Shown one piece after another: positions 32,186-50,514 of a stretch of DNA of 54,530 nucleotides. The first letter of the stretch is position 1. Each line of letters begins with the position of its first letter. The notes beneath the pieces were generated by a model, which searched no databases, was not told where the DNA came from, and was given only the letters and a program-made list of their open reading frames with translations. The stretch is from assembly GCA_949295505.1 (NCBI GenBank), contig CASFLH010000084.1:1-54530 (forward strand). The letters run 5' to 3'. Source of the DNA: an uncultured Spirochaetales bacterium (GTDB lineage: Bacteria > Spirochaetota > Spirochaetia > Sphaerochaetales > Sphaerochaetaceae). The translations under genes were made by a program, and so were the position numbers.

Positions 32186-33148
32186 ATGAGCCAGACAGAA
32201 CGTGTCCTTGATATCCTTTATCAGCTTTCCCGCGATGATGGGAGTATAAGGCTATCAGATATCGCTGAGCGCTATGAAGTCTCCTTGCGGCAGGCAGGCC
32301 GGGATATCGAATATGTGCGTTACAGGATCATGCCATCTCCCGAGATGCTTGTTTATGATAGGCAGAAACATGCATATCGCCTCTGTGATGGCGCTGATGT
32401 GCTCTCAGGCTGGAGGGAGAACATGCTTATATCATTCGCCGTGATGAGTGATATGGCGGGAAGCGCGCTTGGCAGGACTGAGATAGACAATGCGCTTCCT
32501 CTTTCGATGCGGAAAATACTTTCCCATATCGACTACAGGACTCCAGTCAGAAGCTATGGCGATGATGAACGGCATCTCGCAGCCGTCTTTGAGGCTTTCG
32601 AAAAAGGCAGGGGCCTTATAATCCGCTATAGGAAAACACCTGATTCCGAGACAGAGAACCGAGATGTCGATCCTCTGAAGCTGATAAACTACCAGGGGTT
32701 CTGGTATCTTCTGGGGTATGATTTCAGCCGCAAGGGTATCAGGACATTCCGTCTGTCCAGAGCCGAGAGTGTAATAGTTTCCCTCCGCAACGCGTCTGTA
32801 TATGACGGGAATGAAGTCGATGATATCCTTGATTCCTCATATGGCATGTTCATTGGAGAGAATCCTAAGGGCGCGCTATGGTATACAATGCGCTTTTCAT
32901 CTTCAGCTGCAGTCAGGGTCTCTTCAGAAATCTGGCACAGTGGTCAGAAAGGACGCTGGGACGGGAATGAATATGAGCTCTCGATTCCGGCATCAAGCCC
33001 TGTGGAAGTCATCTCCAGGCTTCTATCCTATGGAAGCGATGCCTATCCGGTCTCCCCTGACAGCTTTGTGGAAGCATACGGCGAAATCGTGCGTGAAATG
33101 GCGGAAAAATGCAGCGCAAAGTTAAAAAATCCCGATTCATCGCATTAA
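32186..33148 (+). CDS. WYL-domain transcriptional regulator
   Basis: 320 residues. An N-terminal HTH_11-type winged helix (VLDILYQLSRDDGSIRLSDI, then EVSLRQAGRDIEYVR) is followed by a WYL domain with the segment LKLINYQGFWYLLGYDFSRK (about residues 170-189) and FRLSRAESV. WYL domains bind small ligands or nucleic acid fragments, and WYL regulators often control accessory or defence-like loci. It stands directly upstream of the chaperone-usher locus, about 25 bases from its promoter, and may control it; that is inference from position. Confidence 0.9.
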   Translation: MSQTERVLDILYQLSRDDGSIRLSDIAERYEVSLRQAGRDIEYVRYRIMPSPEMLVYDRQKHAYRLCDGADVLSGWRENMLISFAVMSDMAGSALGRTEIDNALPLSMRKILSHIDYRTPVRSYGDDERHLAAVFEAFEKGRGLIIRYRKTPDSETENRDVDPLKLINYQGFWYLLGYDFSRKGIRTFRLSRAESVIVSLRNASVYDGNEVDDILDSSYGMFIGENPKGALWYTMRFSSSAAVRVSSEIWHSGQKGRWDGNEYELSIPASSPVEVISRLLSYGSDAYPVSPDSFVEAYGEIVREMAEKCSAKLKNPDSSH

Positions 33149-33457: not shown

Positions 33458-34195
33458 ATGTTCGCTAAACGTATTGTGACAGTCTCAGCACTGTTGCTCT
33501 TCTGTGCATTCTCTTTGATGGCTTATCAGCTGTCACCGCTGAATGTAACGTATGACCCGACAGGTGCAGGCAGCGCCAAGGTCTACACTATCGTCAATGA
33601 TTCAAGCTCACCTGTTGCAATTGAGCTGAAGGCGATGCGCCGTTATATCGATATCAATGGCGAAGAATACACCGAGGAAGCTCCTCAGTTTTTCTCCATA
33701 CAGCCTGCAAAGATGATTATCATGCCGGATTCCACGCAGCTTGTCCGTGTACAGTATCGCGGACCATCGACTGTGACAGAGGAAATGGCATTCAGGATCA
33801 TCTCTGAGCAGATTCCGATGCCGCGTGGTGCTCAGGATGAGAATAGCGGCCAGATGATATCATTCCTTTTCGTATATTCCACCAGTGCATATGTACGCCC
33901 TTCAAGAGTGGTTGAGAATGTTGTTGCTACAGCAGAGAAAACCGAGGATGGAAAAATCGAGATTATTCTTGAGAATACAGGATCTGTTCATCAGATGCTT
34001 AATAGTCTTTCCATCGTACTCACGGGAAATAATGGAACAACATATACGTTGACGGAATCTGAGACCGAATCGTTATCGGGAAAGAACCTTCTTGTAGATT
34101 CAAAACTCAGGACAGTCATCGAAATCCCAGAAGTTCTGACAGGCTCTGATGTTTTCACCGCGTCAGTTTCCTACGACTACGAGTATTCAGCCTAA
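33458..34195 (+). CDS. PapD-like periplasmic fimbrial chaperone
   Basis: 245 residues with a signal peptide (MFAKRIVTVSALLLFCAFSLMA). The mature part has the two-immunoglobulin-domain layout of pilus chaperones: an N-domain rich in short strands with AKVYTIVNDSSSPVAIEL, then FFSIQPAKMIIMPDSTQLVRVQY and MAFRIISEQIPMP, the latter matching the strand-F/G region that donates a strand to subunits, then a C-domain (IEIILENTGSVHQML). It would fold and escort the subunits encoded downstream to the usher. Similarity is structural in pattern and divergent in residues, so the assignment comes from pattern plus context. Ribosome-binding site AAGGGAGAG. Confidence 0.75.
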   Translation: MFAKRIVTVSALLLFCAFSLMAYQLSPLNVTYDPTGAGSAKVYTIVNDSSSPVAIELKAMRRYIDINGEEYTEEAPQFFSIQPAKMIIMPDSTQLVRVQYRGPSTVTEEMAFRIISEQIPMPRGAQDENSGQMISFLFVYSTSAYVRPSRVVENVVATAEKTEDGKIEIILENTGSVHQMLNSLSIVLTGNNGTTYTLTESETESLSGKNLLVDSKLRTVIEIPEVLTGSDVFTASVSYDYEYSA

Positions 34196-34222: not shown

Positions 34223-37200
34223 ATGGCAATGAATGATAGACGGGGTGGTTCCCGGCGCATCTTCATCATCATCTTATCTGCCCTGACAGCTGTTACGACA
34301 GCTTGTCTGGCCCTGCTTCGGAACAGCATAGGGCAGAGTCTTTCTGTGCTTCTTGGTTATGTCATTCTCTTTATGTCATCCGTTCTGATGAATCTCTGCA
34401 TCGCAGGCAGTACGGATGAGACAAAGAGAACGGCTCTTCTTGTCTTCTCGCTTGGAATCCTCGTCTTCTTCCTTGGCGGGATGATTCACATTCTCTTCTC
34501 AGATGATGAGACGGAGTACACTGCAACACCTTCGATAGCTGAAGCGCACATCACCGAACACCCAGCTGAAGTTATCGGCACAGCAGATGACGAAACAGGC
34601 ATTCAGGTTGCTGATGAGAAAGATGAGGCTTATATCACCCCCATTATCACTGAGCCCCATGAAACGTCTGGCAGCACTGAAGAGACAGAAGAGCCGCTCT
34701 CGCATTCCTTAGATGAAGACTATCACAATGATGAAGGGCCTCTCCAGAGTACTGACCCCTTCGTTGCAGCAGATAGTGAGGAAAAAGCATCTACTCCTGC
34801 TGCTCCTGAGATGTATTTCACCATCACGGATATTACCGAAGATGAACCTGTGGCAGAGGAGATCATCTTTGAACCACCTCCTGTACCAGAAGAAACAACA
34901 GTAGCGGAAATGGAGAAAGAAAGTGCATCTCCACAGCTTGCGGCTGCTGAGACAGTGGAGGCAATCGAGGCCGAGACGGAATCGGAAATTGCAGAGGCTG
35001 AGATTGTCACCGGTATAAGCGATGAAAATGAAGGATTCGCGAAAACGGAAACAGCTGTTGAAAAGACATCGGAAGAATCATCTGCAGATAGTTTCGATTA
35101 TGATTCCTATTATGCCGACTTCTTTTCGGATTTTTATATCCAGGGGCGCGATGACATGCTCCTTGAAGATGGCATCTATTACATGGATCTCTCAATCAAT
35201 GGAAACAATGTCGGTTCGATTGAGACAGAGGTTGTCGATGGTGAAGCTGCTATAAGCAAAGCGGAATTCGATTCCTACATCTATGGTTCTGTTGAAGATG
35301 TGCTTGTTGACAATATCATGGATTACGAAGGCCGTTATCTTCCTCTCGATTATATTGCGTCTTTTGGTGTTGGAGCATCTTTTGATCCGAACACATTTGC
35401 CATAGATATTGTTTTCAGCGCTTCTGATATGCCTCTTCAGATTCTGAGCATCGGTGGCGGAAGCTCAAGGAGAAATTCCTTCAGGCCAATATCCGATGGT
35501 ATTTCTCTCGATCCTGCTGTATTTGTCCTTAGAACAAGATGGGATTTTTCTGGTAGTATCGGATCTTTCATCGATAGTCCTTATGATACTCTGAGATTCA
35601 CTCTTTCTTCTGATAACACAGGCAGAATCAATGATGTATATTTTGATTTCAATTATTCTCTTGATTTCGCACCTGATGATTTCAATTTCAGAATGGGATC
35701 ATATCGGTTCTATAAGGATTTTGAAGATTCGATGATACGCCTCTCCTGGGGTAATGTATCTTCGGATGTTCTAAGCCCTTCTGGCCGTACCTTTGGCGTT
35801 AGATTTGATAGAAGCTATGCTTATGGTGGCCCGAATGCCCAGCGCAGAAGCCATCTTGAAAGGATGCTCCTTATTGATAAGACGTCAGAAGTCATTGTCT
35901 ATAACGAAGGAAGGGAGATCTACAGACGCACTCTTGATCCTGGCAATTACAGGCTTCGTGACTTCACGCTCTATACCGGAGCAAATACCATAACCATCAG
36001 GGTTGTTCCTCTTGATGGTTCTGCTTCGTCTGAACAGACAATCGACATCATGTACTCAAGCTCTCTTCTTGCGCCGGGTGAAGTGTATTACGGAGCAGCC
36101 CTTGTATCCGGGAGAAATGTTTCAAGAACGAAGAGCAGCAGGCCTGGAGTGCTTTCAATTCCGCTTGGGAGAGAGTATCTGGAATATGATTGGCGCAATG
36201 TCGTGCTCTCAGGATACATCGAGGCAGGCCTGACTGATTCACTTACGATTCATTCAACACTTGCCCTGCAGAATTATCCTGAAGGCCGGCGAAGCTGGAA
36301 TCCTAGAGTCAGGCTTAATACGGAGCTCACCCATGCCAATATTCTTGGAACAACCAGATACAACTTCAATATTGGTGAGTACATGGGCAATGATGGCTTT
36401 ATGGAACTTCCTCGCTTGTATGCGCGTGTCAGCCATCAGGTATCGACTGGGTGGACCCCGATTTCATCGCTGAATCTCAGCTTCGCATATTCTAATCCTG
36501 AGGAAAACAGACTCGCTGGTCGCCATAGGTTCTCATTCTCCGGTGGTCTTTCGGGTCGTCTTGGATTTATGAATTGGAGTACAAGTGCCTCTGCATCTCT
36601 CAATTCAGATGCCTTGGATGCATTCTCATGGAGTACTGCAGGCACGCTTAGTTTCTCCCTGTCGAGATATTTCTGGATATCGGCATCTGCATCTCTCAGT
36701 GGTACAGGATTTGAGTCTCCAAGAGCTTTCGGCCGTGTCTATGCGACTGTGCGGTTCGGCAAGGGTTCTGTTTCTGCCTCATCTAATTTCAGCAGTATTG
36801 CAGTTTCTGCTAATGCTTATACCGACAACCATTCATTCTCTGCTGGAATCGAGGCCTCAGATCCATTGAATTTCAATTCATATAGAGGGTCTGCTGATTA
36901 TTCGTACACAGGCAAGTGGGTGGGCGTTTCAATTGGTGCGAACGCTGATAATGGATTCCGCGATGGAAGCGCAGATTTCTCGCTTTCAACCAGCACTGTT
37001 TTCGCTGACGGGATGTTCGCTGCAGGTGAATATATACCCCAGAATTTCCTTCTTGTAAGACAGTATGGCGCTCTGAGAGGCAATGAGCTTTCCGCGGGAT
37101 CCGCGGGAGACTCCAGAACAGAGATTCTGAATCAGATCTTTGGCACTGCGGTTTATACGGGGCTTTCAACAGGTAGAGGAACAGCTTTCAGCCTTTACAG

Positions 37201-37699
37201 CACATCTGATGATTCTTTCAGCGGGCCTTCGATATTCAACATAAATGTTCCGCCAAGCAGTGAGTATGGATACATTCTCCGTCTTAGTGCAGAGGATTTG
37301 TATTCTGTGTCTGGAATCGTCGAACTCCCCGATGGAAGTGTGTGGAGGAATGGAGCTTCTCCTCTCTATGCATATTCGGAAGAAGCTGGTGAAATCAAGC
37401 TTGAACAGACAGACAATTACGTATTTACAGATGGGACAGGGCGATTTACTGTTTCAGACCTGGCGGCTGGCATGTATGCATTTGATGTCAGCTATGGTGA
37501 TACCTGGCTTCTTGCTATATTCGAAGCTTCTTCCGTTGACGAGGGTAAATCAGGAATGCAGATAGTCTCTCCTGCAGCCGAAGAAGATAGTGTGGAGCTT
37601 CCTGATCCTTATAGCGGAGTGATTATCTTCACCCTTGATGATGTTTTATTCAGCAATGAGTTCTGGGCAATGCTTTATCCAGAGGAGGGTGCGGCATGA
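34223..37699 (+). CDS. Usher-like outer-membrane protein with an N-terminal inner-membrane domain
   Basis: 1158 residues in one unbroken frame. Residues 13-32, 40-61 and 71-92 are three membrane helices, with RRGGSRR before the first, so the chain should leave the inner membrane into the periplasm. Residues ~93-287 are an acidic, proline/threonine/glutamate-rich linker. From ~300 the protein looks like an usher: an N-terminal domain (GIYYMDLSINGNNVGSIETE), a long run of beta-strands, a plug-like insert near 545-600 (VIVYNEGREIYRRTLDPGNY), and a C-terminal domain near 1030-1096 (VSGIVELPDGSVWR ... GRFTVSDLAAGMYAFDV). Typical ushers are ~800 residues with a plain signal peptide. Start ATG 34223 follows AGGAAG; ATG 34229 is possible. 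It ends in ATGA overlap with the first subunit gene. Confidence 0.75.
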   Translation: MAMNDRRGGSRRIFIIILSALTAVTTACLALLRNSIGQSLSVLLGYVILFMSSVLMNLCIAGSTDETKRTALLVFSLGILVFFLGGMIHILFSDDETEYTATPSIAEAHITEHPAEVIGTADDETGIQVADEKDEAYITPIITEPHETSGSTEETEEPLSHSLDEDYHNDEGPLQSTDPFVAADSEEKASTPAAPEMYFTITDITEDEPVAEEIIFEPPPVPEETTVAEMEKESASPQLAAAETVEAIEAETESEIAEAEIVTGISDENEGFAKTETAVEKTSEESSADSFDYDSYYADFFSDFYIQGRDDMLLEDGIYYMDLSINGNNVGSIETEVVDGEAAISKAEFDSYIYGSVEDVLVDNIMDYEGRYLPLDYIASFGVGASFDPNTFAIDIVFSASDMPLQILSIGGGSSRRNSFRPISDGISLDPAVFVLRTRWDFSGSIGSFIDSPYDTLRFTLSSDNTGRINDVYFDFNYSLDFAPDDFNFRMGSYRFYKDFEDSMIRLSWGNVSSDVLSPSGRTFGVRFDRSYAYGGPNAQRRSHLERMLLIDKTSEVIVYNEGREIYRRTLDPGNYRLRDFTLYTGANTITIRVVPLDGSASSEQTIDIMYSSSLLAPGEVYYGAALVSGRNVSRTKSSRPGVLSIPLGREYLEYDWRNVVLSGYIEAGLTDSLTIHSTLALQNYPEGRRSWNPRVRLNTELTHANILGTTRYNFNIGEYMGNDGFMELPRLYARVSHQVSTGWTPISSLNLSFAYSNPEENRLAGRHRFSFSGGLSGRLGFMNWSTSASASLNSDALDAFSWSTAGTLSFSLSRYFWISASASLSGTGFESPRAFGRVYATVRFGKGSVSASSNFSSIAVSANAYTDNHSFSAGIEASDPLNFNSYRGSADYSYTGKWVGVSIGANADNGFRDGSADFSLSTSTVFADGMFAAGEYIPQNFLLVRQYGALRGNELSAGSAGDSRTEILNQIFGTAVYTGLSTGRGTAFSLYSTSDDSFSGPSIFNINVPPSSEYGYILRLSAEDLYSVSGIVELPDGSVWRNGASPLYAYSEEAGEIKLEQTDNYVFTDGTGRFTVSDLAAGMYAFDVSYGDTWLLAIFEASSVDEGKSGMQIVSPAAEEDSVELPDPYSGVIIFTLDDVLFSNEFWAMLYPEEGAA

Positions 37700-38412
37700 A
37701 ACGTTTTATGCTGATTGTTTCAATATTTCTTATTGCAGCCTCCGTGCTTGTTGCCAAGGCAGGTGATACAGATATTGCTGACTTCACCATCAAAGCATTC
37801 AAAGCAGGGCAGGGAATCAAATTGCTTATCAATAATAGAGTCGATCTGAATGACATATTGGAAATCGCGGATGGCTCGACAACAGACAAGAAAGGAACTG
37901 ATATAAAGCTCAATAGCGTCATCGACCAGGTTCTAGGCTCTTCTGCCGGTCTTCAGCAGACTGGCCTCTCAAGCTTCATAATCTTCTCTTATAGGCTGGA
38001 AGGGGGGCTGAGCGGAAGGTATACCATCTCATTTGATGTGAGCCCTCTGAAAAGGGATGGCAGTGACCATGTTATCAGGAGCGTATATCAGATAGGTAAT
38101 TTCAATACTGTGTTTGTCGGATCTGCGGCAGATACAGGACAGACGAACACGCGTGATGGCTGGCGTATTGAGCAAACAGATACGGCTGTTAAGACTGAGG
38201 AGCCTGATTCCTCCGGTAATCCTGAGTTCTCAGAGACCATTACGATTTCTGATGCGAATGGATCCGTGCCATCAGAGCCACAGGCAACACCGAACTGGGC
38301 CGCGAGAGGGGCTGTAGGAATCGTTGTGAGTTACAGCGATTATATCGATAACGAAATAGCGCCATATGGTATGTATTACGCACCTGTGACAGTAAGGGTC
38401 ACGGCAGACTGA
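37696..38412 (+). CDS. Exported putative fibre subunit 1 (238 residues)
   Basis: Signal peptide MKRFMLIVSIFLIAASVLVAKA, then a beta-rich mature protein with no recognised domain. The end, APYGMYYAPVTVRVTAD, has the tyrosine/valine alternation seen at the end of every protein in this operon and typical of the last strand of pilins. It overlaps the usher by 4 bases, so it is probably the partner made first, a candidate adaptor or base subunit. A stretch around residues 148-190 is rich in T, D, E and S and may be flexible. No Y-x-Y-W motif is present. Confidence 0.68.
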   Translation: MKRFMLIVSIFLIAASVLVAKAGDTDIADFTIKAFKAGQGIKLLINNRVDLNDILEIADGSTTDKKGTDIKLNSVIDQVLGSSAGLQQTGLSSFIIFSYRLEGGLSGRYTISFDVSPLKRDGSDHVIRSVYQIGNFNTVFVGSAADTGQTNTRDGWRIEQTDTAVKTEEPDSSGNPEFSETITISDANGSVPSEPQATPNWAARGAVGIVVSYSDYIDNEIAPYGMYYAPVTVRVTAD

Positions 38413-38425
38413 AGGGAGGATGAGC

Positions 38426-39037
38426 ATGAGAAAGGCTATAATGATTGCAGTAATATCAGTTCTTCTTTCAGCTGTGCTCTGTGCTGAACCCGCTCCCGAT
38501 GTTTCGAGAACGATATATCTTCAGGGCGCTTATGATAATGTGCTTTCAATAGGTGTCACTCCCATTGCCTCTCAAACGGGCTTATACAGATATGGCATGC
38601 CCTTTGATATACAGGATGCAAGTGTTCAATACGCAATGTACAGAGGGCGTCCTATCGCAAACTGGACATGTCTTGCGAACACCCCGTTCAGAATTAAAGT
38701 CGAAGCTGAAAAACTTGCTTCTGTCATTGATACGGGATTCACATTGGATTACATCCTCACATTCTCCTATAACATCGCCTACAACGTAAAAGGCGAGACC
38801 AAGGAGGAACAGGGAGCTTTTGAATATAGTACTCTCCAGGCAGCGTCTGGCGGGGATAGTTATGGCTATTATGAGTTCTCCGTACTTGATAACGCTGACA
38901 AGCTTTCATTCATGGGAAGCGTCGACGGCTCGATATTCTTCAGGTTTGAGGACGGACTGATATCAAGGATTGACAACGATGCACCAGCAGGGAATTACAC
39001 GGCTGATGTGACACTGATTCTGGAGGCGCTGGAATGA
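38426..39037 (+). CDS. Exported putative fibre subunit 2 (203 residues)
   Basis: Start ATG 38426, set by GGGAGG six bases upstream; ATG 38420 lies too close to that site. Signal peptide MRKAIMIAVISVLLSAVLCA. The mature protein contains VLSIGVTPIASQ and, mid-protein, PIANWTCLANTPFRIKVEAEKL, which resembles the Y-x-Y-W ... F-x-I-x-L block of the later subunits with the aromatic core changed to A-N-W. It ends APAGNYTADVTLILEALE, the pilin-like last strand. It overlaps the next gene by 4 bases. Confidence 0.7.
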   Translation: MRKAIMIAVISVLLSAVLCAEPAPDVSRTIYLQGAYDNVLSIGVTPIASQTGLYRYGMPFDIQDASVQYAMYRGRPIANWTCLANTPFRIKVEAEKLASVIDTGFTLDYILTFSYNIAYNVKGETKEEQGAFEYSTLQAASGGDSYGYYEFSVLDNADKLSFMGSVDGSIFFRFEDGLISRIDNDAPAGNYTADVTLILEALE

Positions 39038-40425
39038 GAAAAGCTGCATTTTTGATCCTGCTGATTCTGAGTTTCCATTCACCAGTTTTCGCGCTTGAAG
39101 ATCTTTACCTGGGACCATATGGTGGTTCTATTAATGTAAATCTCAATAATACGAATGCTAAATGGAACAAAGGCGCATGGGGAGGGCAGGATCAAAAAGG
39201 CGCGCCATTTGAAGATGGCCAAATAGTTGCAGTGGGTGCGTTGTATAGACTTGAGTATAGAGCGTTTAGAGGACACGAAGCCCGTGACTATGGTCTTAGA
39301 GTGACTTTTTTCAGTAACAGTAATGAAAATGGATATTTCTGGTTCACTTCACAAAGCAATCCGGATTCGCGCCGTCCATTTTATCTGAATGTCGCGGGAC
39401 AGGTTAGAAAACATATTTTGGGGGACAACCATAATAATGAATTTGAAAATTGGGGATTGTATCCTAAGGAAAGTACTGCTAGCATCGCTGACAGCATCGA
39501 AATATATGCCGATGTAGGTGGGTGGGCTCTAGACATAAGCATAATACCGGATATCGCTATTGTCCTGCCAGGAGAAATTGTCAATGGTGTCCTTACTATT
39601 CCATCTGATCAGTCAGTTTCCGGAAGGGAAGAGAAGTATTCGATAGTCTCCGCTTCTGATTATAGCTGCGATATTACTGTACGTTATGAAATAATAGACA
39701 AGTCTGGAAATGTTGTCACACACATAGATGGTTATAATGGACCATATTCCCAGGAAATCACCATTCCATTCTCAGGTTTCTATGATCCTCTTATTGCTCC
39801 AACAGAGGAAGATAATAGCATCCCTCCGGAATTAAGCAGCGCTTTATCGGTGCACACATACCCGGCCGCTGCAAACATTGACCTTAGGAATGACCAAGGA
39901 ACAAGCATGCATATCGCGGACATAAGCTATGCTGTTTACAATGTCAAGGAAAGGACTGATTCGAATTATTATGATGATTCAATCTACATTTTCCTTTCTG
40001 CAAGCCCCAATCCTTATTCCCAGGATATCAACGGCTTCCGCTTCGTTCATGAGGATGTAGCTCCTGGTGTTAATCCAAGCGCGAGACAGTCGCTTGGTTA
40101 TACAGTTACCGTCAATGGTGATCAGGATACAGTAGCTCATGGCGGGACGGATGAAGCGTCATTCAACGGGGATGAATATCTGTCAGTTGAGGGGAGTGTC
40201 GGCAAGGTTGCTCCGGACAATGACGCGAAGATTATAACAGGATGTTACACGGAAGATGTGTCGCATACTGCCGCAGAAAACATTCATCGTCATTGGCATT
40301 CTTTCAACGGGGAAATCTGGCTGAATCTTGATGTGAACAGGGAGGCTCCAGTTATGGAGGCGGGCTATTACCATAGCAATGTCTATGTGCATGCGATTGT
40401 GGATGAGGCAGCAGCAGTGCTATGA
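39034..40425 (+). CDS. Large exported protein of the fibre operon, candidate tip adhesin (463 residues)
   Basis: Signal peptide MRKAAFLILLILSFHSPVFA. At more than twice the length of its neighbours it fits the usual plan in which one long two-domain adhesin caps a fibre. It has no recognised domain. Segments include VNLNNTNAKWNKGAWGG near the start, IVLPGEIVNGVLTIPSDQ mid-protein, and a C-terminal HRHWHSFNGEIWLNLDV followed by MEAGYYHSNVYVHAIVDE, again a pilin-like end. The adhesin role is inferred from size and place. About 110 non-coding bases separate it from the following subunits. Confidence 0.65.
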   Translation: MRKAAFLILLILSFHSPVFALEDLYLGPYGGSINVNLNNTNAKWNKGAWGGQDQKGAPFEDGQIVAVGALYRLEYRAFRGHEARDYGLRVTFFSNSNENGYFWFTSQSNPDSRRPFYLNVAGQVRKHILGDNHNNEFENWGLYPKESTASIADSIEIYADVGGWALDISIIPDIAIVLPGEIVNGVLTIPSDQSVSGREEKYSIVSASDYSCDITVRYEIIDKSGNVVTHIDGYNGPYSQEITIPFSGFYDPLIAPTEEDNSIPPELSSALSVHTYPAAANIDLRNDQGTSMHIADISYAVYNVKERTDSNYYDDSIYIFLSASPNPYSQDINGFRFVHEDVAPGVNPSARQSLGYTVTVNGDQDTVAHGGTDEASFNGDEYLSVEGSVGKVAPDNDAKIITGCYTEDVSHTAAENIHRHWHSFNGEIWLNLDVNREAPVMEAGYYHSNVYVHAIVDEAAAVL

Positions 40426-40534
40426 GGTGGTCTATGGGATGGTATGAAATGAATAAATGCTGCGTATGCAGTTTATATAGGGTCTGGGGGAGAAGAAATT
40501 CTTTCGTAGAAAATAAACACACATGGAGGAGTGT

Positions 40535-41134
40535 ATGAAGAAGGCACTTTGTGTATTGGCGGTATTCCTGATGACAGGAATGGTTTTTGCGGCGTGGACC
40601 GGTGGAAGTGATGGAATCGGAAATGGGGGATCTCAAGCTGTTAAGGCCACACTTAACCTCAAAACAGGAGGAGAGAACATCACGAAGTCTATTGTAGTTG
40701 GCTTCGCATCAGCTCCGGTTACGACTTTTGATGATGTGACAGGTGATATAACAACCGACCAGGGACTGACTATTAACGATGATGATGAAACAGCTTCCCT
40801 TGAAGATGTTTATGTCTATTGGCAGATCAAGTCTCCGGATGCTCTTCAGATAAGTCTGAAGTGGGATGAAAAACTTACGGGTACAGGAGGCAAGGAACTT
40901 GCATGGACAGTTTCCACAACACCGGGGTCTGGCTCCGATAACGGTACGGCATCGACAGGGTCCGGAAGCCTAATACTTGATAGAAGCACAGCAAAAATTG
41001 AGGCCGACGAATTTAACTATGCGACGGTTGGAAGCCAGAAGGTGAATATCTCTGTTAAAGATGTCTATAGCAATGGCATTGTAGATTACAGTGGCACTCT
41101 GACACTTACGATTTCTGGTGAGCAGCAGGGTTGA
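40535..41134 (+). CDS. Exported fibre subunit paralogue 3 (Y-x-Y-W family)
   Basis: 199 residues from ATG 40535, preceded by GGAGGAG; an earlier in-frame ATG at 40523 overlaps that site. Signal peptide MKKALCVLAVFLMTGMVFA. It shows the family blocks: SIVVGFASAPV (about residue 50), VYVYWQIKSPDALQISLKW (Y-x-Y-W near 92-95), and the end VDYSGTLTLTISGEQQG. The glycine- and asparagine-rich N-terminus (WTGGSDGIGNGGSQ) matches that of the next paralogue, so these two are the closest pair. First of seven consecutive related genes, likely polymerising subunits. Confidence 0.72.
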   Translation: MKKALCVLAVFLMTGMVFAAWTGGSDGIGNGGSQAVKATLNLKTGGENITKSIVVGFASAPVTTFDDVTGDITTDQGLTINDDDETASLEDVYVYWQIKSPDALQISLKWDEKLTGTGGKELAWTVSTTPGSGSDNGTASTGSGSLILDRSTAKIEADEFNYATVGSQKVNISVKDVYSNGIVDYSGTLTLTISGEQQG

Positions 41135-41160
41135 TCACAAATAAGTTAAAAGGAATGAAT

Positions 41161-41796
41161 ATGAAAAGATTGACAGTTTTAATTCTTGTAGCAGTTGTTG
41201 CTCTGTCCGGTGTATTCGCAGCTGCATACAATTCGGGAACTGGAAATGATAGCTCAAGCTGGGGTAATGGTGGACATCCGACAGTGCCTTTGAAGTTTAC
41301 TATTGGCACTAACACAGCTTCATACAAAATCGGATTTGATTCGAACCCTGGTGTTCCTGCGACTCCAAGTTTTTCTGGAGATGTTGTGCTCGATTTCAAA
41401 GATGGCGATCCTACGACAATCGTGAATGTCAGCGATATTTATGTGTATTGGGATATCACAACAGCTCAGAATTTCGCCCTCTCTCTTGAAGCAGATGGTG
41501 CTCTTACCACAGGAGACGGAGGAGAAGAGAAGCTTATCAACTTCAAGGTTACTGGTGATAAGTCAAAGCAGGGAGATGTAGCGAATTCAGAATCTACAGA
41601 AGTTTCGATTAAAACCTCGACAGATACAACAGCAGCTAGTGCTTCTCCTATTGTTTCAGAGTCATCTGCAACTGCTCTGAAGTCATTCAAGGGCTATCAG
41701 AAGCTTACTATTGAGTCGCTTCCTGGCGAGCTCGATGGTAAGGCGACAGGAGAATATACGGCAAATCTGACTCTTAAGGTAACGGACGGGAATTAA
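41161..41796 (+). CDS. Exported fibre subunit paralogue 4 (Y-x-Y-W family)
   Basis: 211 residues from ATG 41161, six bases after AAAAGGA; the in-frame ATG 41155 is too close. Signal peptide MKRLTVLILVAVVALSGVFA, then SGTGNDSSSWGNGGHPTVPL, close to the same region of paralogue 3. Family blocks: YKIGFDSNPGVPATP, IYVYWDITTAQNFALSLEAD (Y-x-Y-W at 94-97) and GEYTANLTLKVTDGN at the end. Serine/threonine-rich mid-section (TSTDTTAASASPIV). Probably a fibre subunit exported through the usher. Confidence 0.72.
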   Translation: MKRLTVLILVAVVALSGVFAAAYNSGTGNDSSSWGNGGHPTVPLKFTIGTNTASYKIGFDSNPGVPATPSFSGDVVLDFKDGDPTTIVNVSDIYVYWDITTAQNFALSLEADGALTTGDGGEEKLINFKVTGDKSKQGDVANSESTEVSIKTSTDTTAASASPIVSESSATALKSFKGYQKLTIESLPGELDGKATGEYTANLTLKVTDGN

Positions 41797-41799
41797 TAA

Positions 41800-42300
41800 A
41801 TGAGAAGAGGGATGACAGCCATTCTGATTGTGGTTTTCATAGCAGTCTCTGGACTGTCATTCCTCTATGCGTCAACAATCCAAGAAAACCCCGTCAAAGT
41901 TTCCTTTGGTTTCGCTGAAGGGAAGGGGTCATATGAGATTGGATTTTCGGATTCGGCGGATAACCCTTCCGCGAATCAGATAGAAGCGATACCGCTAGGC
42001 CTCGATTCGGATGGATTCGGAGTGCCTTTGAATGATGTATATGTTTACTGGGCTATTACATCAACAATACCATTCAGACTTAGTCTTTCCGAGGCTGAGA
42101 GCGGTACGCTTCCTTTGACTGTTTCCTGGGATGATAAGGAAAGCAATGACATCATTTTTGAGTCCCGAGCAGGGGTGTACAGCAATACGGATGCTGTCAA
42201 GCTTTCTATCAAGACGGTTAACAATATCAGCGAATTGAGCATCAAGGATTATAGTACGACCTTGGTTCTGAGCATCATGCCAGCCGGGGATGGCGATTAG
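41800..42300 (+). CDS. Exported fibre subunit paralogue 5 (Y-x-Y-W family)
   Basis: 166 residues, shortest of the set. Start ATG 41800, three bases after the previous stop. Hydrophobic export signal in MTAILIVVFIAVSGLSFLYA after a basic MRRG. Blocks: SYEIGFSDSADNP, VYVYWAITSTIPFRLSLSEA (Y-x-Y-W at 81-84), and the end DYSTTLVLSIMPAGDGD. Lacks the long N-terminal glycine-rich stretch of paralogues 3 and 4. Confidence 0.7.
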   Translation: MRRGMTAILIVVFIAVSGLSFLYASTIQENPVKVSFGFAEGKGSYEIGFSDSADNPSANQIEAIPLGLDSDGFGVPLNDVYVYWAITSTIPFRLSLSEAESGTLPLTVSWDDKESNDIIFESRAGVYSNTDAVKLSIKTVNNISELSIKDYSTTLVLSIMPAGDGD

Positions 42301-42309
42301 GAGGGGAAT

Positions 42310-42876
42310 GTGAGGAAAATTTTGAGTATCTTCATTGTCGCTCTCTTCTGTATTGGCTTCCTTTTCTCAGCTGAGCATGTGGTTTATGATTCTGATGAGC
42401 CAGGAGAGAATGCGTATAAGAATATTGCAATGAATCCTGCTAACCGCAGTTATTTTGAGATAGGATTCTCTTCTGGAGCTTATGATTTCAAAGGAGTTCC
42501 GTCTGTGTCATTTGATGAGAATGGCCTGATGCCTCTCGTTTATGATGAAGCAACGTATATAGCAGAAGGAGATATCAATATTTACTGGCTGTATGGAACA
42601 ACCTCATCATTTGATATCGTACTATCATGTACAGCACTTGTTTCTCAGAGCGACAACAGTGTGACAATTCCTCTTTATGCTGATTATGGTGACCTTACTG
42701 CAGAGAGCGGGAGTGATCCGATTGATATTCTCAATATAAAGAGCTCTGGGGAGTATCAGATCAGCAATTCCCTAGAAAGCGATACAGCAATCCATCTTCG
42801 TTCGGGAATATTGCTGGATAAACCAGCAGGTGAGTATAGAGGATCGGTTATATTGGAGGTCAGATCAGCCACATGA
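42310..42876 (+). CDS. Exported fibre subunit paralogue 6 (Y-x-Y-W family)
   Basis: 188 residues from GTG 42310, preceded by a strong AGGAGGGG at about 42300. Signal peptide MRKILSIFIVALFCIGFLFS. Blocks: YFEIGFSSGAYDF, INIYWLYGTTSSFDIVLSC (N-I-Y-W at 90-93, first tyrosine lost), and PAGEYRGSVILEVRSAT at the end. It overlaps the next gene by 4 bases. Confidence 0.7.
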   Translation: MRKILSIFIVALFCIGFLFSAEHVVYDSDEPGENAYKNIAMNPANRSYFEIGFSSGAYDFKGVPSVSFDENGLMPLVYDEATYIAEGDINIYWLYGTTSSFDIVLSCTALVSQSDNSVTIPLYADYGDLTAESGSDPIDILNIKSSGEYQISNSLESDTAIHLRSGILLDKPAGEYRGSVILEVRSAT

Positions 42877-43424
42877 GAAGAGGAATCATATTTATTGTCT
42901 TATCTATAATGATGGTCTTCTCTATTTATGGGGAAAGTCTGGACACTGCCGATATTGAGGTTGTATGGCCCCCTGAGAATTCTACATTCATAAGATTCGG
43001 GTTTTCTTCATCTCCTGTCTCAAGTATGGGAGAGGATCCTTCTTCTGGCGGTCAGTCTGATTCATATATTGCATTCAACACCACTTCCAGATCTGGAACG
43101 GATATTGTCTCAAGTTATACAGGAAGCCTTTATGCTTATTGGCAGATGTATAGCAATGACGTGTTCTATATTTATATCGGAGCCAAGAGCCTGACGAAAG
43201 AAGGAGCCGCTTCAATACCTTTTACGGTGAGCTGGGAGGGCGGTAACAGCATAACAAGCACTGATACTGCAGAAAATAGCGCGGAAATCCTCCATATGTA
43301 TGATACGAGTATCACAGCGGACGCGGATTCCGAGGAACTTACTATTCAGACGACGATGCCGGAAGGCGCTGTGGGTGATTGGTATGAAGGCTATATTTAT
43401 CTTGAATTGAGGAGAGCGGAATGA
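42873..43424 (+). CDS. Exported fibre subunit paralogue 7 (Y-x-Y-W family)
   Basis: 183 residues, starting in ATGA overlap. Signal peptide MRRGIIFIVLSIMMVFSIYG. Blocks: FIRFGFSSSPVSSMG, LYAYWQMYSNDVFYIYIG (Y-x-Y-W at 87-90) and the end WYEGYIYLELRRAE. Overlaps the next gene by 4 bases, so paralogues 6, 7 and 8 are translationally coupled. Confidence 0.7.
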   Translation: MRRGIIFIVLSIMMVFSIYGESLDTADIEVVWPPENSTFIRFGFSSSPVSSMGEDPSSGGQSDSYIAFNTTSRSGTDIVSSYTGSLYAYWQMYSNDVFYIYIGAKSLTKEGAASIPFTVSWEGGNSITSTDTAENSAEILHMYDTSITADADSEELTIQTTMPEGAVGDWYEGYIYLELRRAE

Positions 43425-44008
43425 AACGGACAATATTGGCTATTCTGATTATTGTTTTATCTCTTCAATTCGCCGCAGCGGTTTCTGGCGAACCTGACAG
43501 GTTCAGGGTTGTTCAGTTTACGCCTGACGCGTTTGCACGTGCTGGATTTTCTAATAATCCTGTTGTAAGTACTGTTGAACCTGACGGAAATGCTTCCACG
43601 CCTATTTCGCTCGCGTTGAGTGGGAATATCATCACTTCAGAAAAGGCAGCGTATGCATATTGCCAGATTTTCACAAAGCTTCCTGTCCAGATACGGGTTT
43701 CGGGCACAGCTCTGGAACTCAGGAATTCCAGCAATGTTGTGACCAATTCATATAGCTGGAAAGCTGAGTTCAAAGGTTATGATGGATTGATAAAGAACGA
43801 ATCAGTAACTTTATCGTCTGGATCGGAGGCAACAATCCTCAATGAGACCCAATATTCAGCTGATATAGATTTCGGATATCCCAGACATTATTGCTGGTCG
43901 GTCATGGTTACTTTGGATAATGATTCTAATGGAGAAGCCAAGAAACAGCCTGCAGGAAATACGACCCCGATAACTGGAAAGATAACTCTAGAGATCATAA
44001 CGGAGTAG
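43421..44008 (+). CDS. Exported fibre subunit paralogue 8 (Y-x-Y-C variant)
   Basis: 195 residues. Signal peptide MKRTILAILIIVLSLQFAAA. Blocks: FARAGFSNNPVVSTV, AYAYCQIFTKLPVQIRVSG and TPITGKITLEIITE at the end. The tryptophan of the signature is a cysteine here (Y-A-Y-C, 78-81), and a second cysteine occurs later in HYCWSVMV, so this member could form a disulphide that its relatives cannot. Confidence 0.7.
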   Translation: MKRTILAILIIVLSLQFAAAVSGEPDRFRVVQFTPDAFARAGFSNNPVVSTVEPDGNASTPISLALSGNIITSEKAAYAYCQIFTKLPVQIRVSGTALELRNSSNVVTNSYSWKAEFKGYDGLIKNESVTLSSGSEATILNETQYSADIDFGYPRHYCWSVMVTLDNDSNGEAKKQPAGNTTPITGKITLEIITE

Positions 44009-44019
44009 GAGGCGGAAAT

Positions 44020-44658
44020 ATGATGAGAAAGATTACTCTGATTGCATTGTTCATTTTTTCTGCTGTATTCCTTTTCTCGGCAGGTGATGTTAATATCGGC
44101 GGTAATTTCAATGTTGTTCTTCAGAAGACAGGCACTGATAGTTATGGTTTTTGCACATATGAGACAGCTTCCAGCAATACTCATGATTCATTGAGTTCGA
44201 TTGACTTTGAACTTATTGCTTCAAGGGATCAGACAAGAACGACAACGAAATTTGGAGTGTATTGGGATTTGTACACGGAAAACCAAGCTGAGAATATTGA
44301 GCTGATTCTTGCTTTCTCGGCTACCAATGACAATCTTAGCCCTTATATGCTTATCGCAGATGACGGCAATGTCCACTCATATCTGAATTATGATGTGGCA
44401 GTTGATGAGTATGAGGGCGACTCGGAAAAGCCGTCTTCATTAACTGTGGTGCCGGCTGAGAGAGATTCCTCGATGAGCACTTCAAGGGAAATCAGACTGC
44501 TTGATCTTGAGAATCTGGCTCCGTACTCAGGAACAAATGGTTATGCAGCAATTACGCTTACTCTGAATTCACCTGTCGATTCCGAGACCCTTGCTAATGA
44601 GCCATTCCATGAGGGGAAATACACAGGCTATGTACTGCTGTACTGTATTTCCGGGTAA
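44020..44658 (+). CDS. Exported fibre subunit paralogue 9, last of the operon
   Basis: 212 residues from ATG 44020 or 44023, preceded by AGGAGGCGG. Signal peptide MMRKITLIALFIFSAVFLFS. The signature is FGVYWDLYTENQAENIELIL (V-Y-W at 80-82); the G-F-S-x-x-P block is missing, and the N-terminus (GDVNIGGNFNVVLQKT) differs, so this is the most divergent member. It ends HEGKYTGYVLLYCISG. In chaperone-usher operons the last gene is often a terminator or anchor subunit. No clear terminator follows in the 100 bases before the convergent gene. Confidence 0.66.
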   Translation: MMRKITLIALFIFSAVFLFSAGDVNIGGNFNVVLQKTGTDSYGFCTYETASSNTHDSLSSIDFELIASRDQTRTTTKFGVYWDLYTENQAENIELILAFSATNDNLSPYMLIADDGNVHSYLNYDVAVDEYEGDSEKPSSLTVVPAERDSSMSTSREIRLLDLENLAPYSGTNGYAAITLTLNSPVDSETLANEPFHEGKYTGYVLLYCISG

Positions 44659-49659: not shown

Positions 49660-50514
49660 TCATTTCATCTTGCCGGCAAGTTCTGTAATCTCTTCTTCTG
49701 ACAACTTTGTTGCTGTGGAAATCGCGGAAAAAGATAACCCCATCTTAAGCAGATTCATTGCGATCTCCGCCTTCTCATCATTCCTTCCCTCAGCCTTGCC
49801 CGCTTCTTTTCCTTTTTCGATTCCCTCATCATAGAGCTTCACGCCGAAGTCCCCGAGTATGTTGTATGCCTCCATTCTTCTCTCCTCATTCCCTTTCACT
49901 CTCCACAGAGCCTCCCTCATGTCCGGGCACTCCATCTCCTCTATCTCCCTCTTCGCGAGATCGTCATAGAACGCCCTGAGATCCTCCCTGATTCTACCAC
50001 GGTACGCCATGTTTGCCACATACATCGTGCACCCCGTGCCATCAACAAGCCCGAACCCGTCATCCTCCCTCGTCCTGAACCTGTATACCGCCTTGCCCTT
50101 CCCGAAGATGTCGCTGTCCACGATGAAGATGACTATCCTCTCCCTCATCGATGTGAAGCCCTCTCCCCTGAGAAGCGCCTTCCATGCCAGCACCGAGGAG
50201 TAGTATTCCATCCTCTTCCCGAACTCATTCCGGCTCACGCCGTGCATCTTCTGCATCTCGATGTCTATCAGGGCACCGCTTCTGTCCCTGGCAAGGATGT
50301 CGAAGGTGACGGAGTGCCCATCGACGACGCGCATGCTCACCTGCGCCCTGGCGCTCTCCACCCTGATGTCCTTCCTCTCTGTGATCGTGCTCACCAGGAA
50401 CTGGACGCCTGATACGTTGCCATCGAAGCCGATGGCGAAGGCAGCGTCATCCGAGAGGGTGAGGTTGTCGACGAAGGTCTTGAGCTCTTCCCGCGGGATC
50501 TTCTTTTCCTTCAT
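49660..50514 (-). CDS. Rpn-family recombination-promoting nuclease / PD-(D/E)XK transposase-like protein
   Basis: 284 residues from ATG 50514, with AAAGGAGG upstream. The nuclease core is visible: FDILARDRSGALIDIEMQK (D...E-x-Q-K), followed by RMEYYSSVLAWKALLRGEGF, as in the Rpn/PDDEXK_2 family. Near the end, EGIEKGKEAGKAEGRNDEK is the low-complexity charged helix typical of these proteins. Rpn proteins increase recombination and are spread as multi-copy, often variable genes in gut bacteria; a DNA endonuclease role is known for the family. The GC-rich coding style differs from its neighbours, which suggests transfer. Confidence 0.87.
   Translation of the reverse strand: MKEKKIPREELKTFVDNLTLSDDAAFAIGFDGNVSGVQFLVSTITERKDIRVESARAQVSMRVVDGHSVTFDILARDRSGALIDIEMQKMHGVSRNEFGKRMEYYSSVLAWKALLRGEGFTSMRERIVIFIVDSDIFGKGKAVYRFRTREDDGFGLVDGTGCTMYVANMAYRGRIREDLRAFYDDLAKREIEEMECPDMREALWRVKGNEERRMEAYNILGDFGVKLYDEGIEKGKEAGKAEGRNDEKAEIAMNLLKMGLSFSAISTATKLSEEEITELAGKMK

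Follow-up and report, generated by a model that had tools for sequence, protein, structure and literature searches.

In the classical assembly of chaperone-usher pili, no ATP is used at the outer membrane and the process is driven by donor-strand exchange (PMC8410936). Classical ushers (FimD, SfmD, HtrE, ElfC, and PapC) carry a cleaved signal peptide and then an N-domain, a plugged barrel, and a C-terminal domain, and are encoded next to a PapD-type chaperone. The window analysed here, a 54,530-nucleotide stretch of DNA from an uncultured Spirochaetales bacterium of the family Sphaerochaetaceae, encodes a protein (P0001) with the same order of domains and an adjoining PapD-type chaperone; here, however, a predicted inner-membrane anchor and about 200 acidic residues come before the N-domain. 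As far as could be found, this anchor–linker–usher architecture is real, conserved, and present in no other usher, and a search of the literature other than the Sphaerochaeta genome paper returned no description of ushers in Sphaerochaeta. On sequence evidence, we argue that P0001 and its homologues are probably anchored in the inner membrane and span the periplasm through their linker, so as to provide a passive mooring for an outer-membrane assembly platform.

Gene layout and usher homology

P0001 is encoded by a single open frame on the + strand (34,223–37,699), which runs from an ATG at 34,223 to a stop at 37,699, encodes 1158 amino acids, and has homologues in other genomes of the family. 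Hydropathy places three hydrophobic helices at residues 13–31, 42–60, and 72–90, while an AlphaFold model places them at residues 9–31, 38–61, and 64–91, followed by coil to about residue 317 and strands thereafter. This model is based on a two-sequence alignment (the window and L031) and its mean pLDDT of 33 makes it worthless for folds, a limit which also applies to the many strands predicted where the 24-stranded barrel of an usher is expected. Taken together, hydropathy, model helices, and charge bias delineate an anchor of three helices at residues of about 9–91 (34,247–34,495, + strand) with a predicted N-in/C-out orientation, followed by a putatively disordered acidic linker at residues of about 95–295 (34,505–35,107, + strand), which is identified from its composition and its coil state in the model and has no conserved motif. 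An initial sequence-only reading had described an unbroken frame starting with three membrane helices, as the frame, the hydropathy profile, and the model helices all confirm, and an acidic linker rich in proline and threonine. The acidic character stands, with 30% D/E, 2% K/R, and a net charge of -55 over about 202 residues, whereas proline is a weaker feature (7% in P0001, and a higher mean of 14% in its relatives).

The beta-rich part that follows the linker comprises about 860 residues. The usher N-terminal domain (residues 296–400; 35,108–35,422, + strand) opens with a D-F-W-A-D-F-Y motif conserved across the family alignment and aligns with the FimD-family N-domain in hhalign, and the barrel region (residues about 401–1000; 35,423–37,222, + strand) aligns with both E. 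coli K-12 and spirochaete ushers by the same method. Within the barrel, a plug-domain-like segment (residues 554–633; 35,882–36,121, + strand) has a PF00577 match (96–174) and includes VIVYNEGREIYRRTLDPGNYRLRDF, which aligns with the FimD plug, while a weak PF13620 match points to a C-terminal Ig/carboxypeptidase-regulatory-like domain at residues of about 1020–1105 (37,280–37,537, + strand).

On its own, P0001 matches PF00577 at 21 bits, below the Pfam gathering cut-off of 27.1, which is an annotation threshold rather than a biological feature. Pfam and NCBIfam searches with this protein by itself gave signals too weak for an assignment; homology was decided by profile comparison. PF00577 matches at E<=0.01 were obtained for 10 of 59 family members, and a PF00577 search of the window's own genome returned no match. 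Profile searches of the PDB yielded only low-complexity matches and membrane matches in unrelated channels when the full-length alignment was used, and because the body-only alignment gave no direct usher match either, we built a bridge through more distant relatives. An alignment profile of the family usher bodies (A3), searched against 393 genomes of the phylum, recovered relatives in other spirochaete families (hereafter outgroup ushers), of which two lie far above the Pfam Usher cut-off and a third also passes it. In profile comparisons, A3 aligned with these outgroup ushers at E=2.1e-59 over 718 columns, and the outgroup ushers aligned with E. coli K-12 FimD, SfmD, HtrE, and ElfC at E=1.3e-18 and with the FimD and PapC structures at E of about 1e-11; A3 also aligned directly with the K-12 ushers (E=4.8e-8 over 649 columns, hhalign). 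Through this bridge of signal-peptide ushers, homology firmly identifies the body of P0001 as a genuine chaperone-usher usher, and the N-domain, barrel, plug, and C-domain patterns first noticed in the sequence alone are borne out.

Upstream of the usher, on the same strand, lies a gene for a PapD-like periplasmic chaperone of 245 amino acids (33,458–34,195; PF00345 PapD_N, E=2.1e-6, over cut-off), with a canonical signal peptide (SLMA|YQLSPL), and a chaperone homologue was found in all 71 usher loci of the 71 compared. Further upstream, a WYL-domain protein (32,186–33,148, + strand; PF13280, E=4e-18) is a possible regulator of the locus. Downstream of the usher, ten exported proteins are encoded in tight order between 37,696 and 44,658 on the + strand, most of them with a pilin-like last strand. 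The first three (37,696–38,412, 38,420–39,037, and 39,034–40,425) carry signal peptides and a C-terminal G-x-Y-x-x-x-V-x-L/V pattern; six paralogous pilin-like subunit genes follow (40,523–44,008, with starts at 40,523, 41,131, 41,800, 42,310, 42,873, and 43,421), whose products have G-F-S and Y-V-Y-W motifs and a pilin-like last strand in common (alignment A6), and a tenth exported, pilin-like gene lies at 44,020–44,658. Pfam searches gave no match for the first three and no pilin match among the ten.

Distribution and history in the Sphaerochaetaceae

An usher homologue was detected in 105 of 139 genomes of the family, representing 15 of 22 genera, while several reduced genera are without any usher. 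Flagellin was detected in none of 81 family genomes tested, as would fit the non-motile Sphaerochaetaceae. All 79 full-length homologues that were aligned have the same anchor–linker–usher layout, with an acidic or P/E-rich linker of 94–424 residues before the usher N-domain, a range that leaves out the 44 residues computed for L078 owing to a hydrophobic stretch within its linker. The number of anchor helices is mostly one outside the window's genus (g1) and three, five, or seven within it.

This recurrence bears on the possibility that the N-terminal extension is a start-site or assembly artefact, and that translation truly starts near residue 290. The weak direct Pfam match could be taken in this sense, as could the origin of the window, which is a contig from a 113-contig, 80% complete assembly. 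The layout is, however, repeated in complete single-contig genomes (G090, G091, G093, G100, and G113), purifying selection acts on the codons of the anchor (pN/pS of 0.29–0.71 against four relatives), and P0001 has no signal peptide near residue 290, nor do its homologues start there with a signal peptide of their own, as they keep the anchor. We thus consider an artefact vanishingly improbable, and the fusion of anchor, linker, and usher is, judging from these comparisons, no local accident.

In a quick tree with long outgroup branches, all ushers of the family group into a single clade apart from the outgroup and follow the genera. The tree requires 16 changes for 17 groups, which is the least possible, and the usher body has therefore been mostly vertically inherited. 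Within the window's genus, anchor and body have different histories, with breaks inside the linker. The window's anchor is 66–70% identical to those of L006, L010, and L014, whose bodies are about 45–46% identical to its own, whereas its closest body (L031, about 69%) comes with an anchor that is 38% identical. Similarly, L004 and L008 have anchors that are 99% identical and bodies that are 43% identical, and at the DNA level an identity of 96.8% extends over the chaperone, the anchor, and the early linker to about codon 147, beyond which no similarity was found. L007 and L018 diverge at about codon 224 and become similar again some 10 kb further on. The position of these break points in the linker suggests that body and pilin genes move as a cassette while chaperone and anchor stay, and the association of unrelated anchors with similar bodies, and the reverse, favours a generic passive tether over specific signalling. 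For the family as a whole, we propose that a cleavable signal peptide was swapped once, in the family ancestor, for an uncleaved anchor and linker.

The pilin-like genes are distributed differently from the usher. Window-type pilin-like genes were found with strong scores beside ushers of the g1 type, including in two genomes of genus g2 (G008 and G013), apart from one weaker match in G012 on another contig. One of these genomes, G008, carries two ushers, a three-helix one accompanied by pilins and a single-helix one accompanied by a V-type ATPase. In most genera of the family, no pilin genes adjoin the usher, whose function as an usher is only putative there.

Anchor topology and signal-peptide cleavage

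Of the 79 homologues, 75 have an N-terminal tail with a net positive charge and none has one that is net negative, and in 70 of 79 the segment after the last helix is net negative. This charge bias is as expected for, and therefore points to, an anchor with its N-terminus inside and its C-terminus outside. An odd number of helices was counted in 76–77 of the 79 homologues (laxer threshold), L012 being a clear exception with two helices and L016 and L021 depending on the threshold. Odd numbers seem to keep the linker periplasmic and, because they are nearly always kept, helices have apparently been added in pairs. The anchors compared across homologues have no conserved polar residue.

Alternatively, the hydrophobic N-terminus may be an unusual signal that is cut after its last helix, in which case the mature usher would reside in the outer membrane only and bear an acidic periplasmic tail. 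Such a disordered tail does adjoin the N-domain in every member, and a plausible A-x-A type site lies near the helix end in 14 of 52 single-helix ushers, as against 50 of 80 exported controls, although a rule-based count of this kind is only mildly informative. A cysteine near the helix end in several genera could likewise mark lipid modification, but it is usually preceded by T, Q, or D at -1, does not form a standard lipobox, and is missing in many genera, and we rejected a lipobox reading on these grounds. The usher helices also exceed the signal peptides of the adjoining chaperones, with a median hydrophobic core of 21 against 17 (p=4e-13), and most of them end in bulky residues (e.g., WYLF or LWTCF), whereas the chaperone signal peptides, used as a control, have A-x-A type sites in 58 of 60 cases. 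A cleaved signal would, in addition, not evolve to three, five, or seven helices. BamA of the window's genome, the only other barrel compared, starts with a normal signal peptide and is devoid of a linker. We set aside a weight matrix for signal-peptidase sites that had been trained on the chaperones, as it also rejected the outgroup ushers and hence recognised only chaperone homology. Overall, cleavage by signal peptidase is disfavoured, although it may occur in some genera, chiefly among single-helix members, and a cleaved signal across the family is an unlikely alternative to an uncleaved anchor.

Possible role of the tether and comparison with known systems

In 11 genera outside the window's genus, a V-type ATPase operon of the same orientation lies directly downstream of the usher (38 of the 48 informative loci outside g1), with gaps mostly below 100 bp and ATPase subunits confirmed by Pfam, while in genus g10 it lies about 13 kb downstream. 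These chaperone–usher–V-type ATPase loci have no adjoining pilin genes. Together with the TonB-like layout of a helix and a P/E-rich spacer, this adjacency raises the possibility that, through the tether, the assembly or export of fibres draws on energy from the inner membrane, perhaps from the V-type ATPase. However, no match to the AC39 subunit was obtained in genus g21 or genome G024, both of which keep the usher; the V-type ATPase of the window's genome is on another contig (G000:C46), and in g1 it is found elsewhere than at the usher locus; and none lies beside the outgroup ushers in nine informative loci. The adjacency is ancient and conserved but, as the usher persists where the ATPase is undetected, unnecessary for usher persistence, and common expression or an inherited order of genes is a likelier explanation than energy coupling.

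The anchors and linkers bear on the same question. The sequence-only reading had proposed that the fusion couples assembly at the pore to the inner membrane, a view that the family does not uphold: no conserved motif was found in the linkers of the 79 homologues (P-x-x-P occurs in 13 of 79, and an apparently conserved proline was rejected as an alignment artefact), and the anchors, devoid of any conserved polar residue, are freely exchanged: similar bodies occur with anchors that differ in sequence and in helix number, and the converse also holds, as expected of a passive tether. A single polypeptide acting as both inner-membrane protein and outer-membrane usher pore, with its position or assembly activity under active coupling to inner-membrane machinery and with the ancestral chaperone–usher–V-ATPase order as a functional unit instead of an inherited neighbourhood, is very improbable, and a tether that draws on inner-membrane energy for assembly or export hardly credible.

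A further possibility is that the usher has largely given up pilus assembly and serves mainly as a structural strut between the two membranes, in cells that lack periplasmic flagella and have little or no PBP-type cross-linking; the pilin cassette of g1 would then be a secondary reuse. Vertical inheritance across genera and the lack of local pilins in most of them would be consistent with this, as would the lack of SCPU-type subunits over cut-off in the family. The same holds for the absence of flagellin (0 of 81 family genomes tested) and of a PBP transpeptidase match in g1 (0 of 11 genomes) and in the g21 genomes tested; the transpeptidase is single-copy in most other usher-bearing genera. 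On the other hand, a chaperone is kept in every locus, residues of the plug and N-domain are among the most conserved, which suggests a working chaperone-usher function, and the reduced genera mentioned above do without an usher. A strut as the main role thus appears decidedly unlikely.

Under the passive mooring that we favour, the anchor would be inserted by Sec, leaving its N-terminus cytoplasmic. The linker, with 94 residues or more (at least about 34 nm when extended), is long enough for a periplasm and would cross it, and the barrel would be folded into the outer membrane. Chaperone-subunit complexes would be received by the usher N-domain at the end of the linker, and the usher would remain moored facing the inner membrane. 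The tether would thereby position the assembly platform and tie both membranes, without serving as a relay dedicated to signals or energy. For the window, the cargo would be the products of the ten pilin-like genes downstream, and the assembly chemistry would be that of classical pili, i.e., donor-strand exchange, on a platform moored in the inner membrane. Such a mooring may be of greater importance to cells that have few PBPs and lack periplasmic flagella.

Ushers are textbook outer-membrane machines that work without ATP there (PMC8410936). An entire family of bacteria whose ushers appear to be moored in the inner membrane opens three questions: can the machinery that folds barrels act on a substrate that remains held in the opposite membrane, does a covalent tether determine the spacing of the envelope in spirochaetes that lack flagella and are poor in PBPs, and is fibre assembly altered when it takes place close to the site of export? 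The mix-and-match evolution of anchors and bodies, with breaks in the linker, provides a natural domain-swap set.

Among known systems, the ushers of other spirochaete families are closest to the body of P0001 and also have a chaperone in the same locus, and one of them (L123) is accompanied by a Csu/SCPU-like subunit gene, as in archaic systems. These ushers are 786–898 amino acids long, and the ten examined (L122–L131) have an ordinary signal-peptide-like leader and a short lead before the body, with neither the anchor and linker nor the V-ATPase neighbour seen in the family of P0001. TonB, which is not itself an outer-membrane barrel, begins with a helix in the inner membrane and continues with a P/E-rich spacer across the periplasm. 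The likeness of P0001 to TonB is one of architecture only. The anchors lack the conserved polar residues (His/Ser) of the TonB helix, and inspection by eye of the usher neighbourhoods listed revealed no ExbB/ExbD-like genes. TamB-like proteins are held in the inner membrane by a signal anchor, have their C-terminus at an outer-membrane barrel, and thus reach from the inner to the outer membrane, as is proposed for P0001; TamB, however, docks to a separate barrel, whereas that predicted for P0001 is part of the same chain. With its signal peptide replaced by one to seven helices and a linker, the P0001 family hence represents a variant usher rather than an ordinary member.

Cassette exchange and g1-type ushers in g2

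Usher body and pilin genes have been swapped together as a cassette, as seen when related loci were compared in pairs (L143 vs L144, and L145 vs L146). In both comparisons, the DNA break points of the swap fall within the codons of the acidic linker, and the chaperone and the inner-membrane anchor are kept across it. A three-helix usher of the type found in g1, the genus of the window, is also present with pilin-like genes in two genomes of genus g2, G008 and G013 (loci L022 and L017), and was probably gained by transfer. G008 retains a second usher, which is single-helix and ATPase-linked.

V-type ATPase neighbourhood and missing domain matches

Across 11 genera, a V-type ATPase operon lies directly downstream of the chaperone-usher pair (e.g., L047:7312-17403 and L060:7723-17572; also L043, L054, L078, L079, L081, L083, and L086), and no pilin genes adjoin these ATPase-linked pairs in the loci of those genera. 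The PBP transpeptidase domain (PF00905) had no match in the tested genomes of g1 and g21, and one match in most other usher-bearing genera; a V-ATPase AC39 match was also missing from g21.

Interrupted frames and neighbouring genes

Two related genomes carry a broken usher frame, through an in-frame stop (L049:1089-4400) or a split into two overlapping frames (L075:7587-10707), reflecting either decay or assembly error. Within the window, a PD-(D/E)XK nuclease family transposase-like ORF (49660-50514) lies downstream of the usher locus, and a WYL-domain gene just upstream of the chaperone (32186-33148) is a candidate regulator.
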